Assembly (NCBI RefSeq): GCF_004365355.1
Contig: NZ_SODP01000002.1
Coordinates: forward strand, 1,049,838-1,113,837
DNA from: Kribbella pratensis
GTDB lineage: Bacteria > Actinomycetota > Actinomycetes > Propionibacteriales > Kribbellaceae
DNA: 64,000 nt
Reading direction: 5' to 3'
The number at the start of each line of letters is the position of its first letter. The stretch's first letter is position 1. A program made the translations under genes and the position numbers. Shown here in pieces: positions 28,938-53,885 of the stretch. The notes under the pieces are model-generated. The model was not told the origin of the DNA. It saw nothing but the letters and a program-made list of their open reading frames with translations, and did not search any database.

Positions 28938-31205
28938 ATGTCGGACAACTGGAACCAGCCCCCGGGGAGCGACCCGGCTGACGATCAGCCGAACCGCCCA
29001 CCGGAGCACGGTCCCGGGCAGAACCCCCACCGCCCCAGCGCAGACGACCAAGGCCCCGGACAGGGCCAAGGCGCTCCTGGGGAGAGCCGGCGCGGCCCCG
29101 CCACGAGCGGTCCTCGGCAGGCGAAGGGTGGTCCTGGGAACGGCCAGGGTGGGCAGTCGTGGTGGATCGGTGACACCGACGCCAAGCGCGAGTTCCAGAA
29201 CCCGTCGCAGGCCGAGCCTCCCGCCAACAACTGGTTCGCCGGCGGCTGGAACCCCACCCGCCGCGAACACCCCGACCAGCCCGCCGACCCGAACCAACCG
29301 GTCCAGGGTTCAGCTCCGGGCCGCCCCGGCCCAGGCCAGCGCAGTCCGCAACAGTCCGGCCCCCAGCAGTCGGGCCCGCAGCAATCCCGTCCGCAGCAGT
29401 CCGGTCCTGCCCGCCCGGGCCCGAACCAGCCAGGCCCGAACCAGCCAGGCCCGAACCAGCCAGGCCCGAACCAGCCAGGCCCGAACCAGTCAGGCCCGAA
29501 CCAGTCAGGCCCGAACCAGCCGGGTCCGAACCGACCAGGTCCGAACCAGCCCGGCCGTCAGCACCGCGGACCACAACAGTCTGGGCCGAACCAGTCGGGT
29601 CCCAACCAGCCCGGCCCGAGGCAGTCGGGTCGCAATCGGCCTCGCCCTAACCAAGGGGGTTCCGGCCGGCCCGGCCCGAGCCAGCCGAGTCCGTGGCAGT
29701 CCGGCCCGCCCCAGGTTGACCCGTGGCAGACCAGCCCGACGGCGTCCACTCCGCAGTCGGACTCGTTCTGGTCGCAGTCCGCCCCAACCCCGCAGAGCCC
29801 CAAGCAGTCCGGACCCGACGGCCCGTCCCAGCCGAGCTCGCCGCAGTCCGGAGCGTCACAAGCAGGGGCCTCCTGGTCCGCGCAGTCGTGGACGTTGCGG
29901 GACGACTCTGCAGGCGACAGCGAGTCGCAGCATGAGTCCTCCGAAGCTGGTTCCCGTCAGTCCGGCCAGGGCTGGTCCGCGACAGCGCAGTCCGGGTCGA
30001 GTGCTTGGCAGGCGGCGCCGTCGCAGCCGCCGCAGCGGGATCAGAGTGGTCCGCGCTCCGAAGACTCCTACTTGTGGGGCCCGGCCAACCAGAGTCAGCA
30101 GCCCACGTCCCCATGGAGCAACGCGCTCTCACCACAGCAGCAGGCCGGTCCCCGCCACGCCGCATCCCAGGGCGGTCCGGGCCAGATCGGGCCGATGGGT
30201 CAGCCCGTCCAGCAAGGACCGAACTGGCAGTACCCGCCGATCCCGATCCCGCAGCCACCGGGCGGCCGGCGTCGTCGTAAGAAGAAGGTCTCGCGCAATC
30301 TGCTGATCCTTCTGGTCGCGCTCGCTGTACTAGTGGTCGGCTCGGGCATCACCCTGCTCATCCGCAGTGTCGGTGGCGGTGACGACCCGCAGGCCAAGGA
30401 CAGTCCGACGGCGCCCGTGTCAGAGTCGTCCTCGTCGCCGTCCGAGAGCCCGTCGACCTCACCGAGCCCGTCCACGCCCCGCGGCCCGACGGCCGACGAG
30501 GTGGTGAAGGGCAGCGCGCTCTACAAAGTCGGCCCGGTCGCCGCGTCGAAATGCGCGGAGCCGCCGTTCGCACCGGTCACGGTCCCGGCAGCGCAGCAGT
30601 ACTACAACCGCCTGCTGCCTTGCCTCAACCGCACCTGGTGGCTGGCGATGAAGAAGGCCAACCTGCCGTTCCGCAACCCGAAGGCGGTCGTGTACGTCGG
30701 CAAGACGCCGTCCCCGTGCGGGATCCAGCGCAGCGTGCGCGCGGCGTACTGCGGCGCGAACGAGACGATCTACCTGCCGTTCAGCGTGGACAACGGGTAC
30801 TACCGGACCAACCCGGTCTACGCGCGTGCGGTCATGCTGAACACGTTCGCCCACGAGTACGGGCACCACGTGCAGAAGCTGAGCGGGATCCTCGCCTCGT
30901 CGATGTCCCGGCAGCAGTCGATGACGCCGAACCAGAAGCTCCTCGAGAGCCGCCGGCGCGAACTGCAGGCGACCTGCCTCGGCGCCGTCTACCTCGGCGC
31001 CAACGCGGCGTTCACGCCGATGAACGGCCCGCTGCTCGCCAACTGGAAGTTCCTGATCTCCCACTCCGGTGACGACTACGCCCGGCCGCGCGTGCACGAC
31101 CACGGCAACCGGGTGAGCAACTACCAGTGGTCGATCAGCGGTTTCAACAGCAAGAAGCCGGACGCCTGCAACACGTTCACCGCAGCAGACGTCCGGGTCA
31201 ACTAG
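28938..31205 (+). CDS. Membrane-anchored neutral zinc metallopeptidase 3, giant Q/P/G/S tail
   Basis: 755 residues. About 440 residues of cytoplasmic low-complexity sequence rich in Gln, Pro, Gly, Ser and Asn, including a PGPNQ repeat block (about 160-205), come before a basic stop (RRRKKK) and one membrane segment (about 453-475). A Ser/Pro linker and the peptidase domain follow with HEYGHHVQ and LQATCLG. GAGGAG precedes the ATG, unlike paralogs 1 and 2. The repeats are encoded by 15-bp DNA units, so tail length may vary between strains. Confidence 0.85.
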   Translation: MSDNWNQPPGSDPADDQPNRPPEHGPGQNPHRPSADDQGPGQGQGAPGESRRGPATSGPRQAKGGPGNGQGGQSWWIGDTDAKREFQNPSQAEPPANNWFAGGWNPTRREHPDQPADPNQPVQGSAPGRPGPGQRSPQQSGPQQSGPQQSRPQQSGPARPGPNQPGPNQPGPNQPGPNQPGPNQSGPNQSGPNQPGPNRPGPNQPGRQHRGPQQSGPNQSGPNQPGPRQSGRNRPRPNQGGSGRPGPSQPSPWQSGPPQVDPWQTSPTASTPQSDSFWSQSAPTPQSPKQSGPDGPSQPSSPQSGASQAGASWSAQSWTLRDDSAGDSESQHESSEAGSRQSGQGWSATAQSGSSAWQAAPSQPPQRDQSGPRSEDSYLWGPANQSQQPTSPWSNALSPQQQAGPRHAASQGGPGQIGPMGQPVQQGPNWQYPPIPIPQPPGGRRRRKKKVSRNLLILLVALAVLVVGSGITLLIRSVGGGDDPQAKDSPTAPVSESSSSPSESPSTSPSPSTPRGPTADEVVKGSALYKVGPVAASKCAEPPFAPVTVPAAQQYYNRLLPCLNRTWWLAMKKANLPFRNPKAVVYVGKTPSPCGIQRSVRAAYCGANETIYLPFSVDNGYYRTNPVYARAVMLNTFAHEYGHHVQKLSGILASSMSRQQSMTPNQKLLESRRRELQATCLGAVYLGANAAFTPMNGPLLANWKFLISHSGDDYARPRVHDHGNRVSNYQWSISGFNSKKPDACNTFTAADVRVN
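29418..29552 (+). repeat. 15-bp tandem repeat array inside zinc peptidase 3
   Basis: Nine consecutive 15-base units (GGCCCGAACCAGCCA and variants), the first four identical, encode Pro-Gly-Pro-Asn-Gln. Perfect copies suggest recent slippage. Confidence 0.9.
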
Positions 31206-50828: not shown

Positions 50829-51773
50829 ATGAGACTGCAACGACTCGCCCTCGCGATGGCAGGGATGGGCCTGCTCGCTGCGTCCGTCGTCTCTGCACCG
50901 GCCACCGCCAGTACGACCGACTCGAAGCCCTGGTCCGACCGGACCAAGCAGACGAACACGACCAAAGCCGGGACGGCCTGCTTGGTCTCGGCCGCCTTCC
51001 CGAGCGCGGCGGGCACCGTGTCGGAGGCCGACGCGATCGCCGGACGGCCGGCGCAGGGCGTGCAGTACGACCCGTTCAAGTTCGTCGGAACCCGCGCCAA
51101 CGCAACGTGGTACCTGGCGTCGAACGCCGCGCTCACGCAGTTCTACTACTACGGCCTGCTGCTGCAGGGCGGGAACCTCTACCGGCACACGACGTACATC
51201 TACGAGGACGACCGCGCCCCGCTCGCGACCTTCAAGAAGGTCGGTAGCGGCTGGACGAGCTTCAAGACGATCGCCACGTCGAACCTCAACACCTACAACG
51301 CCCGCCACGCGTTCCTGTACGGCCTGAACAGCAACGGCAGCCTGTACCGGTACTCGATCGTCGGCGCCGGCATCAAGTCGTACGGCTCGTTCCCCGGCTT
51401 CAAGGGCTTCAAGGCGATGACCGTCATCAGCGAGAACGCGGCGTACGACACCCTGCTGATGACGACCACGGCCGGCGCGCTGTGGTCGGTCCGGATCCCG
51501 ACCGCCGCCTCGACCAAGCCGATCCTCAAGCGGATCCGCAGCGGCGGCTGGCAGAACTTCGAGTCGCTGGTCGTCGAGAACTGCGGTACCCGCGGCGGTC
51601 TGCTGATCCTGGGTGTCGACAACAACACCCAGAGCGGAACGCTCTACGCGATGAGCAAGGCCAACGGCGCAGCCACCGCCCTGACCGGCTACGGCCCGAT
51701 CCAAGGCGTCGTCTTCAACGGCGTAGACACCGTCCGCGAGGCGTCGTACTACGACCAACTCGTCGGCGAGTAG
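50829..51773 (+). CDS. Secreted protein, tachylectin-like propeller
   Basis: 314 residues with a Sec signal peptide (to about 27). The mature part has repeated segments with W or Y, G and aromatic strands (for example GSGWTSFKTI, GGWQNFESL, FPGFKGFKAM), consistent with a beta-propeller of the tachylectin 2 type. Two or three cysteines. Function unknown; sugar binding is a guess from fold. The last 16 residues (VDTVREASYYDQLVGE) recur in a broken copy at 53.1 kb, showing that a paralog once followed. Confidence 0.75.
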   Translation: MRLQRLALAMAGMGLLAASVVSAPATASTTDSKPWSDRTKQTNTTKAGTACLVSAAFPSAAGTVSEADAIAGRPAQGVQYDPFKFVGTRANATWYLASNAALTQFYYYGLLLQGGNLYRHTTYIYEDDRAPLATFKKVGSGWTSFKTIATSNLNTYNARHAFLYGLNSNGSLYRYSIVGAGIKSYGSFPGFKGFKAMTVISENAAYDTLLMTTTAGALWSVRIPTAASTKPILKRIRSGGWQNFESLVVENCGTRGGLLILGVDNNTQSGTLYAMSKANGAATALTGYGPIQGVVFNGVDTVREASYYDQLVGE

Positions 51774-51786
51774 TCACCAACCGAAG

Positions 51787-51818
51787 GGCGCCCTCAGCAA
51801 CTGTCTGCTGAGGGCGCC
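51787..51818. terminator. Hairpin terminator before the RNA island
   Basis: GGCGCCCTCAGCA and TGCTGAGGGCGCC form a 13-bp stem with loop ACTGTC, just after the propeller gene. Confidence 0.8.
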
Positions 51819-51856
51819 TCGGCTATACAGTAGAAGTGAAAAGAAGTTCGCTGTAA

Positions 51857-52015
51857 CGGAGCATGGGGAGTCAGTCCCAGCGGTTCATCGCCGGATGCTC
51901 CGACTGAAGTGGACGATCCGGGTTCGAGTCCCGGCGCCCTCGTTGGAGGGACGTAGCTCAAATGGCAGAGCCCCACTTTTTCGTGAGGGGCGGGCTGCTC
52001 GGCAGTCCGCCCCTC
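51857..52015 (+). ncRNA. Permuted tRNA-like RNA (candidate bacterial Y RNA, YrlA type)
   Basis: In transcript order I see: an 8-bp leader stem CGGAGCAT/ATGCTCCG (51857-51864 with 51895-51902) enclosing two small hairpins; AGTGG (51908-51912); a five-base variable loop ACGAT; a perfect T arm CCGGG-TTCGAGT-CCCGG (51918-51934); CGCCCTC (51935-51941); a GTTG turn; GAGGG-A-CG (51946-51953), which pairs with CGCCCTC with one bulged A; T-A; a D arm GCTC-AAATGGCA-GAGC (51956-51971); C; CCACT (51973-51977), which pairs with AGTGG; then a 9-bp plus 4-bp terminator hairpin (51985-52015). All arms of a tRNA are present, with the acceptor stem closed and the ends at the anticodon. TACAGT at 51826-51831 is a possible -10. 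No CCA is encoded. Confidence 0.7.
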
Positions 52016-52016
52016 G

Positions 52017-52850
52017 TCACGTGTTGGCCAGTACGACGCGCATCGCAGCGGTGAGTTCGTAGTCGGTCAGCTTGAGGCTGGCGTAGTGGCGCCGGGCCTT
52101 TCCTGCGGCTTTCCGTTCAAGCTGGTGCCGGTTCAAGTTCCCGGGTTCCTCGGCAAGGACGTCTTCGATGACGAGCTGCGCCCACAAGGTCCGGCTGAGG
52201 GAATTGGCCTGGCGTCCAAGGGACTTGGTCACTGCCAACGTGAGGATGAGTTCGGGGTGGCCGAAGTCCACCCGATCGCCCACTGCGATCGCGGCCAGGG
52301 ACTTCTTCGCAATCCTCACCCAGCCGGCCTCCGCGGTCGGTGTCCACTGCGCAACCTTGTCTACCAGAGCCTGGTGCGCCCGGCCACCACTGTGGATGGT
52401 CGCATTGCGCATCAGCCGAATTGTGTCGATCTGGATGATGCTGTCCGCGTCGAATGTCTCACCGGTGGCCGTCTCGATCCCATCGTGCAATTGAGCGCGC
52501 ACAGCGCTGCCCGCACTCGAGGGCGCTCTCCCGTCTCGAATCAGGAGCCCGACGCAGGTCTTGAGGAAATCCTCGTGCAGTGCGAGGGCGTACGGAACGC
52601 TCATCGCACCGAGATGCGTGTCGGCAGACTGCAGGATGGACCGTGCAGCCTCGGTTCGGAGGTTGAAGCGGCGGATGTGCGGGACACGCGGGAACACCTC
52701 AGGTAGCAGAGTGTCCGAGCCCTCGGTCAACTGCAGCTGATGCGAGGCCAGTTCGGCACCGGCCAATAGGCCCATCATCGCGTTGCTAGCTTGTTGACGC
52801 TGCACCTCGAACGCGCGGTACTCCGCGAAGTGCACGATCCCGGTTCCCAC
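52017..52850 (-). CDS. HEPN-like protein convergent with the tRNA-like RNA
   Basis: 277 residues, largely helical, no signal or membrane segment. An R-N-x3-H motif (MRNATIHSGG, near residue 150) matches the catalytic motif of HEPN ribonucleases; the surrounding helices fit but overall similarity to a named HEPN family was not recognised. Base composition is lower in GC than its neighbours (34 of 60 at 52381-52440), suggesting transfer. The stop lies in the arm of the hairpin that ends the tRNA-like RNA. RNA cleavage or binding is inferred. Confidence 0.6.
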   Translation of the reverse strand: MGTGIVHFAEYRAFEVQRQQASNAMMGLLAGAELASHQLQLTEGSDTLLPEVFPRVPHIRRFNLRTEAARSILQSADTHLGAMSVPYALALHEDFLKTCVGLLIRDGRAPSSAGSAVRAQLHDGIETATGETFDADSIIQIDTIRLMRNATIHSGGRAHQALVDKVAQWTPTAEAGWVRIAKKSLAAIAVGDRVDFGHPELILTLAVTKSLGRQANSLSRTLWAQLVIEDVLAEEPGNLNRHQLERKAAGKARRHYASLKLTDYELTAAMRVVLANT

Positions 52851-53202: not shown

Positions 53203-53243
53203 AGCCCTCGGCAACCAACTGGTTGCCGAGGGCTTTTGCTTTT
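53203..53243 (+). terminator. Rho-independent terminator of the relic gene
   Basis: 14-bp perfect stem (AGCCCTCGGCAACC), loop AACT, then CTTTTGCTTTT-like U-rich tract; among the best terminators of the window. Confidence 0.9.
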
Positions 53244-53488: not shown

Positions 53489-53599
53489 CTGCACACCGAG
53501 GGCCGGATGACATGACCAAACGCTGGCGGCATGAGGCAGCTGCGTCGTAGGCGTCCCCGTTCATCCCGCCAACGCCGGTTGCCCGCACGCAGGGCAGAC

Positions 53600-53885
53600 G
53601 CCGGTGGTGCGATCCGGCACCCCGGCGAAGCCGGAAATAAGACAGCCGCGCCGAAGGCGCGTCCTTTCCCGCGAACTGCAGTAGCCCACGCCGGACGAGT
53701 GCTGGTGGAGCGGTCGCGCTCTCCGGCGGAGCCGGCAATAGAACAGCCGCGCCGCAGGCGTGTCCTTTGCCCGCGAACTGCAGTTGCGTGCGCCGGGGCA
53801 AGTGCTTGTGGTGCGATCCCGCGCCCCGGCGAAGCCGGCGATAGACTAGCCGCGCCGGAGGCGTGTCCTTTGGACCCGGCGCGGC
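53600..53885. repeat. Three tandem ~102-bp repeats
   Basis: Copies begin near 53600, 53701 and 53803. Shared blocks are GTGCGATCC, CCCCGGCGAAGCCGG, AGCCGCGCC-N2-GGCG-N-GTCCTTT and CCCGCGAACTGCAG; the third is cut short before the gpmA end. Each contains GCGCC/GGCGC-type hairpins. No gene is seen in 53489-53896. Confidence 0.85.

Follow-up and report, generated by a model that had tools for sequence, protein, structure and literature searches.

A circularly permuted tRNA-like RNA encoded convergently with a candidate HEPN ribonuclease in Kribbella and other actinobacteria

What is an RNA with every arm of a tRNA, but in rotated order, doing in a bacterial genome? Permuted tRNA mimics are known among the Y RNAs that accompany Ro60, and RNA-controlled HEPN toxins are known as well. 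A preliminary description of a 64,000-nucleotide stretch of Kribbella pratensis DNA (the window, numbered from its first letter) had placed such an RNA at 51857–52015, and read it as either a YrlA-type mimic or a true permuted tRNA gene. We find there a small RNA gene of ~125 nt (51857–51981) that encodes a circularly permuted tRNA-like RNA. Its parts run in the order variable region, T arm, loop-closed acceptor stem, D arm and open anticodon stem. Every arm named in the preliminary description is present, including T8-A9, the D arm, base 26 (a C), the T arm and acceptor halves that pair in full with one bulged A. The anticodon stem likewise pairs as proposed (AGTGG/CCACT) but is 6 bp long, one more than had been claimed. 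The end point at 52015 takes in a hairpin that is shared with the neighbouring gene. The preliminary description overlooked a conserved three-way junction at the 5′ end of the RNA and, as its constant neighbour, a convergent protein gene. The features are as follows.

51826..51831, + strand: probable −10 box (TACAGT) of the RNA gene, identified by eye
51857..51902, + strand: 5′ domain, a three-way junction (P1, P2, P3), from 15 hand-parsed loci; P1, the closing helix, is CGGAGCAT/ATGCTCCG; P2 is the hairpin GGG(G)AGTCAGTCCC; P3 is a hairpin with the 7-nt loop TTCATCG
51907..51981, + strand: permuted tRNA-like module, 3′ acceptor half before the 5′ half, its ends at the anticodon stem, with a U run at the end
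51907..51912, + strand: 5′ strand of the anticodon stem, AAGTGG, pairing with CCACTT at 51973–51978
51913..51917, + strand: variable region, ACGAT
51918..51934, + strand: T arm, CCGGG TTCGAGT CCCGG
51935..51953, + strand: acceptor stem, CGCCCTC GTTG GAGGGACG, with one bulged A and no CCA
51954..51971, + strand: U8-A9 and D arm, GCTC AAATGGCA GAGC (D arm 51956–51971)
51985..52015, unstranded: near-perfect hairpin between the RNA and protein genes, inverted repeat GAGGGGCGGGCTGC / GCAGTCCGCCCCTC, possibly a bidirectional terminator
52017..52850, − strand: candidate HEPN ribonuclease, 277 aa, convergent with the RNA, from its motif, predicted fold and structural neighbours

Read through, 51907–51981 is AAGTGG-ACGAT-CCGGG-TTCGAGT-CCCGG-CGCCCTC-GTTG-GAGGGACG-TA-GCTC-AAATGGCA-GAGC-C-CCACTT-TTT. 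Covariance model R1 scores 134.6 bits on the window at 51857–51984. As predicted from the −10 box, transcription of the RNA gene would start near 51838–51840; TAnnnT-type boxes lie ~7–15 nt 5′ of P1 in most relatives and 25 nt 5′ of it in the window. A search for direct repeats in the RNA region (51780–52030) found none. Further upstream, a strong hairpin (51787–51818) follows the gene at 50829–51773, whose product looks secreted and matches Tachylectin weakly (E 0.005); this gene is missing at the same site in some relatives.

RNAfold gives the identical tRNA-like fold as the minimum-energy and centroid structures, and the folding energy of the window RNA is unexceptional (z −0.98), so the case for the fold rests on comparative data. 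Fifteen loci were parsed by hand for the P1, P2, P3, anticodon, T and acceptor helices, hand parsing being needed for P1 and P2 because MAFFT misaligned both. As such parsing could flatter helices, we added a swap control (2000 exchanges of strands between loci) and a model-based count over 17 loci that leaves out P1 and P2. In the hand-parsed set each helix exceeded all 2000 swaps, with paired cells at 97/97 for P1, 59/59 for P2 (control means for swapped strands 0.69 and 0.68, respectively), 56/60 for P3, 78/90 for the anticodon stem, 75/75 for the T stem and 88/91 for the acceptor. The model-based count, in which shuffle values are not probabilities because the loci are related, found 92.3% of 403 pair cells standard against 81.6% when shuffled, and double-sided changes in 51 cells against 16; sliding the partner by 1–3 columns reduced pairing to 35–50%. 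The compensatory changes that the preliminary description proposed to look for in the acceptor and anticodon stems are found in relatives at six of seven and two of six positions, respectively, and they extend to P1 (6/7), P2 (5/5) and P3. For example, the AAGTGG/CCACTT anticodon stem becomes AAGCG(c)G/CCGCTT and AAACG(c)G/CCGTTT. The D stem is invariant in the 17 loci. Taken as a comparison of sequences, this covariation establishes the fold of the RNA and shows that the agreement with tRNA is not due to chance.

The tertiary positions that had been picked out from the window also hold across loci. U54-A58 is invariant in all 15, and A15-U48 is replaced by G15-C48 in one locus (G373). Four loci (Lentzea, Curtobacterium, G027 and Mycolicibacterium) have G55 instead of U55, and all four lack G18; three carry A18, and Mycolicibacterium, whose loop is longer, probably carries C18. 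The U55 loci among the 15 all retain G at position 18. Because these contacts vary in step, they support a folded tRNA elbow. We searched the literature for tRNAs with A18-G55 and found nothing relevant. In 15/15 loci the loop of P3 measures 7 nt, with a consensus of about YUCRNRR, a U-turn pattern resembling an anticodon loop. It is tempting to speculate that this loop acts as a decoy anticodon.

With all the tRNA arms there in rotated order, the locus could be taken for a functional permuted tRNA gene matured via a circular intermediate. However, the acceptor ends are joined, there is neither a CCA nor an anticodon loop, a conserved domain lies upstream of the tRNA-like module, and ARAGORN calls no tRNA at the locus. 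The short loops that close the acceptor, and its reduction in Curtobacterium to a 3-bp stem (CGG-GAAA-CCG), exclude a tRNA product, and we give this identity practically no credence. Elsewhere in the window (29418–29514) ARAGORN reports an unusually long, 97-nt tRNA-Ala (GGC). The comparison with Rfam families that had also been suggested gave a divided answer. At gathering level the window RNA has no match; the best permissive match is YrlA (RF02553), which aligns to the tRNA-like half (window 51910–51975, model positions 23–85 of 114) with 28.7 bits and E 2.4e-4, below the gathering cut-off of 69 bits. TROVE-adjacent RNAs of relatives also reach only 33–53 bits, so the Rfam YrlA model probably misses many. 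The alignment would speak for a conventional Y RNA of the YrlA type that works with Ro60. That identity is nonetheless very improbable: the window genome has no match to a TROVE (Ro60) gene, the conserved 5′ domain is a different one, the constant partner is a HEPN-like protein, and the conserved basal-stem sequence that the rsr-linked RNAs L016–L019 carry (such as CGGTTACCACTTC) is absent from the window RNA by inspection. The proposal of a YrlA-type mimic thus survives for the tRNA-like half and fails for a Ro60 Y RNA.

A search for TROVE genes gave no match in G000, G007, G010, G014, G019 or G027, and in several relatives that have one (G025, G028, G036, G041 and G050) YrlA matches adjoin it. 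One TROVE gene in G050 has several tandem YrlA-type copies beside it, and YrlA-type RNAs beside TROVE genes at L016 (G050) and L089 (G183) score well under the 69-bit cut-off. Streptomyces-type matches of 45–61 bits that we inspected (e.g., L089, L091 and L096) have YrlA-like sequence and do not belong to the window RNA family. Many other YrlA matches (L022–L024, L074–L076, L094 and L102–L103) come from tandem tRNAs lying side by side in an order that mimics the permutation. No such artefact explains the window locus, because both of its stems covary.

The RNA and the protein gene are constantly paired. Among 23 protein homologues from at least nine actinobacterial genera, 21 have the RNA directly downstream in convergent orientation; the exceptions, without an adjacent RNA, are G028 (L051) and G396 (L065). 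Protein identity drops to ~25–35% while the RNA stays adjacent, and the distance from the D arm to the stop codon of the protein gene, measured in 12 loci, is 15–71 nt. A covariance model built from 12 RNAs detects the RNA at 8/8 loci outside model building, comprising 5/5 new chromosomal loci (74–104 bits, E 5e-25 to 2e-17) and 3/3 plasmid loci (87.8, 69.4 and 36.9 bits); the Streptomyces plasmid RNA is weak in score, with correct place and orientation. Control loci score at most 10 bits (ten phoU loci) and at most 31.7 bits (tandem-tRNA loci). A blast search of 58 genomes found the RNA in 5 of 37 same-genus genomes. Among 38 genomes of the genus, seven have the RNA at 54 bits or more, all within the eight that have the protein; among 395 genomes of the class, it reaches 94 bits or more only in five, the window and four others, all with the protein. 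In other families the protein gene is scattered. In G027 the match to the protein is broken across two frames and the RNA has a degenerate 5′ domain (L053/L073), so that the two genes look as if they had decayed together.

This distribution is patchy, and the RNA and gene move as one mobile unit. Four Kribbella genomes (L124, L127, L128 and L129) have the same site without the pair, between phoU or the tachylectin-like gene and gpm, and L056 and L058 match the window only by parts within the RNA and gene. The pair also occurs on plasmids of Mycolicibacterium, Rhodococcus and Streptomyces, and in the window the protein gene has a GC3 of 0.78 against 0.88–0.96 in its neighbours. Two neighbourhoods contain defence genes: the Lentzea pair adjoins GajA and GajB (Gabija) and a SAVED/HNH-like gene, and on the Mycolicibacterium plasmid the pair directly follows two Pycsar cyclases and a Pycsar effector. 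The other neighbourhoods examined hold mostly housekeeping genes, and most are not defence islands. Searches of IMG/VR and a phage collection found no relatives, and PHROGs gave chance-level matches only. Several further features lie near these loci. In Curtobacterium (L060, 5452–5976) a gene with OmdA and DUF1905 domains precedes the HEPN gene by 6 nt on the same strand. The window carries three intergenic 85-nt direct repeats at 53586–53874 (~102-nt spacing, 73–76% identity), with related 20-nt copies from 53119 and similar pieces dispersed in other Kribbella loci. A perfect 15-nt inverted repeat with a 2-nt spacer (53203–53234) also recurs near several relatives' genes.

The 277-aa partner has no match in Pfam, NCBIfam or PADLOC, and a profile search of PDB sequences gave nothing useful. 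It does contain a candidate HEPN motif, R148-N-A-T-I-H153, together with E93-D-F-L-K97 in a long helix. The published rules for HEPN proteins are Rx4-6H, with N, D or H after the R, and a conserved acidic residue in helix 2, often as Ex3[KR] (PMC3710099); the motif, the polar next residue and the acidic helix-2 element of the partner agree with these rules. Across the homologue set, H153 and E93 are kept, and L056 is alone in having lost R148. In the R148-N149-x3-H153 pattern N is replaced by S in L051, K97 is not kept in all homologues, and the E is shifted by one residue in the Streptomyces homologue. AlphaFold2, run on the homologue from K. rubisoli, whose sequence is 95% identical to that of the window protein, gave a pLDDT of 77 over the full length and 88.6 in the core, and the core model places R-x4-H at the end of a helix. 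With this core, the six best rows of a VIA search of the PDB are all HEPN proteins (Z 5.9–6.8), which include HepS of Gifsy-1 and MntA-HepT toxins; HepS is also the first-ranked Foldseek hit (E 0.75). The trimmed core was needed, as the full-length protein had no Foldseek match in the PDB at E ≤ 0.001. These fold matches are modest (Z < 7, E 0.75) and could reflect a common helical arrangement. Each score is modest by itself; together, the motif, its position and the structural neighbours make the protein, on these predictions, very likely a HEPN protein. It is probably a metal-independent RNase, toxic and tRNA-cleaving. A HEPN-domain gene of Gifsy-1 was a candidate for making tRNA fragments (PMC9879122).

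How might the two products work together? By analogy, we suggest that the HEPN nuclease is held inactive by its dedicated tRNA mimic, acting as inhibitor or decoy, a proposal that we regard as evenly balanced between right and wrong. One gene would encode an RNase of HEPN fold that works without metal, is probably toxic and has tRNA as its probable substrate; the convergent gene would encode a ~125-nt RNA in which a permuted tRNA mimic is joined to a three-way junction displaying a 7-nt U-turn-like loop. The RNA would bind the protein as a substrate look-alike and keep the nuclease inactive, much as RCd22 does for AbiF; being open on the anticodon side and closed by a loop at the acceptor, the mimic would act as a decoy that escapes cutting. 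Phage takeover would then free the nuclease, whether the RNA is degraded, no longer made, or outcompeted by phage tRNAs or damaged tRNAs, and translation would stop. AbiF is a HEPN toxin that the RNA RCd22 neutralises by binding to it directly (PMC12373285), and the idea that YrlA could competitively inhibit an anticodon nuclease has been raised as a hypothesis (PMC7790460). A tRNA mimic paired back to back with a HEPN gene fits both. Whether the pair constitutes a new anti-phage or toxin–antitoxin class, with a HEPN tRNA nuclease controlled by a permuted tRNA mimic that carries a decoy anticodon-like U-turn loop, is a tentative matter that we would place just short of an even chance. Several observations speak against a decoy. 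In L056 the RNA is intact but R148 is gone; the G028 and G396 proteins have no RNA encoded next to them, which is difficult to explain for an essential antitoxin unless the two proteins lack activity or answer to a different inhibitor; and the convergent order and lack of RNA repeats are unlike known type III toxin–antitoxin loci.

Retention of the protein in G028 and G396 would be easier to understand if the RNA were not an essential antitoxin, for instance if it activated the HEPN protein or served as a sensor, a tRNA-shaped tripwire that is cut, modified or displaced in infection. The same gene pairing and defence context would suit such an arrangement. However, the best documented HEPN–ncRNA pair that we found, AbiF/RCd22, is inhibitory (PMC12373285), and we consider activation or sensing unlikely; equally unlikely, on our estimate, is the corollary that the RNP would detect a tRNA-directed phage attack. 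The loss of R148 in L056 would instead suit a Ro-like RNP that needs no catalysis, in which the protein takes the place of Ro60, and PNPase or tRNA enzymes are brought in by the tRNA-like end to carry out RNA quality control. The match of the tRNA-like half to YrlA, and the position of YrlA-type RNAs next to rsr in TROVE relatives, point the same way. Against this, the conservation of H153 and E93, and nearly so of R148, is typical of selection for catalysis, and a housekeeping role is not suggested by the patchy distribution, the occurrence on plasmids, the defence genes nearby or the low GC3. We judge a Ro-like role rather improbable.

We return to inhibition by a tRNA mimic as the preferred account. 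The pair is a compact natural case of a tRNA mimic tied to a predicted HEPN nuclease across many genera, and this compactness makes the idea of a mimic as inhibitor of an anticodon nuclease directly testable with ~1 kb of DNA. It suggests toxin restraint through substrate mimicry and, if true, would directly exemplify a Y-RNA-like mimic of tRNA that inhibits an anticodon nuclease or acts as its tripwire. We did not find the combination of a HEPN toxin and a permuted tRNA mimic in the libraries or open-licence papers searched, nor the RNA or protein family in Rfam, Pfam, NCBIfam or PADLOC.

Each half of the pair nevertheless resembles a known system. HepS of the Gifsy-1 prophage (PDB 9oij) is the best Foldseek match of the protein core and one of its top VIA matches (Z 6.1 over 135 residues, rmsd 4.8), but the similarity is weak, with a Foldseek E of 0.75 and no sequence match. 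YrlA (RF02553), which binds Rsr/Ro60 and PNPase, is likewise a small independent RNA beside a protein gene and shares the permuted module of T arm, loop-closed acceptor stem and D arm; the window RNA differs in its 5′ domain, a three-way junction with a 7-nt U-turn-like loop, and in its HEPN-like partner. We know of no tRNA-mimic partner described for HepS. Type III toxin–antitoxin systems (ToxIN, AbiQ and CptIN) are also RNA–protein pairs, and as in them the RNA of the window pair is proposed as direct inhibitor. Their antitoxin is a tandem-repeat RNA encoded upstream in one operon; the window pair has a HEPN-like rather than a ToxN-like protein, no RNA repeats and convergent genes. The pair has no match to Abi_2 (Pfam) or, up to E 10, to the abiF RNA (RF03085). 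AbiF/RCd22 (RF03085) nonetheless shares the arrangement of a HEPN RNase-type protein encoded beside a structured non-coding RNA: the AbiF RNA lies upstream and has two motifs, whereas the window RNA is convergent, unrepeated and imitates a tRNA.
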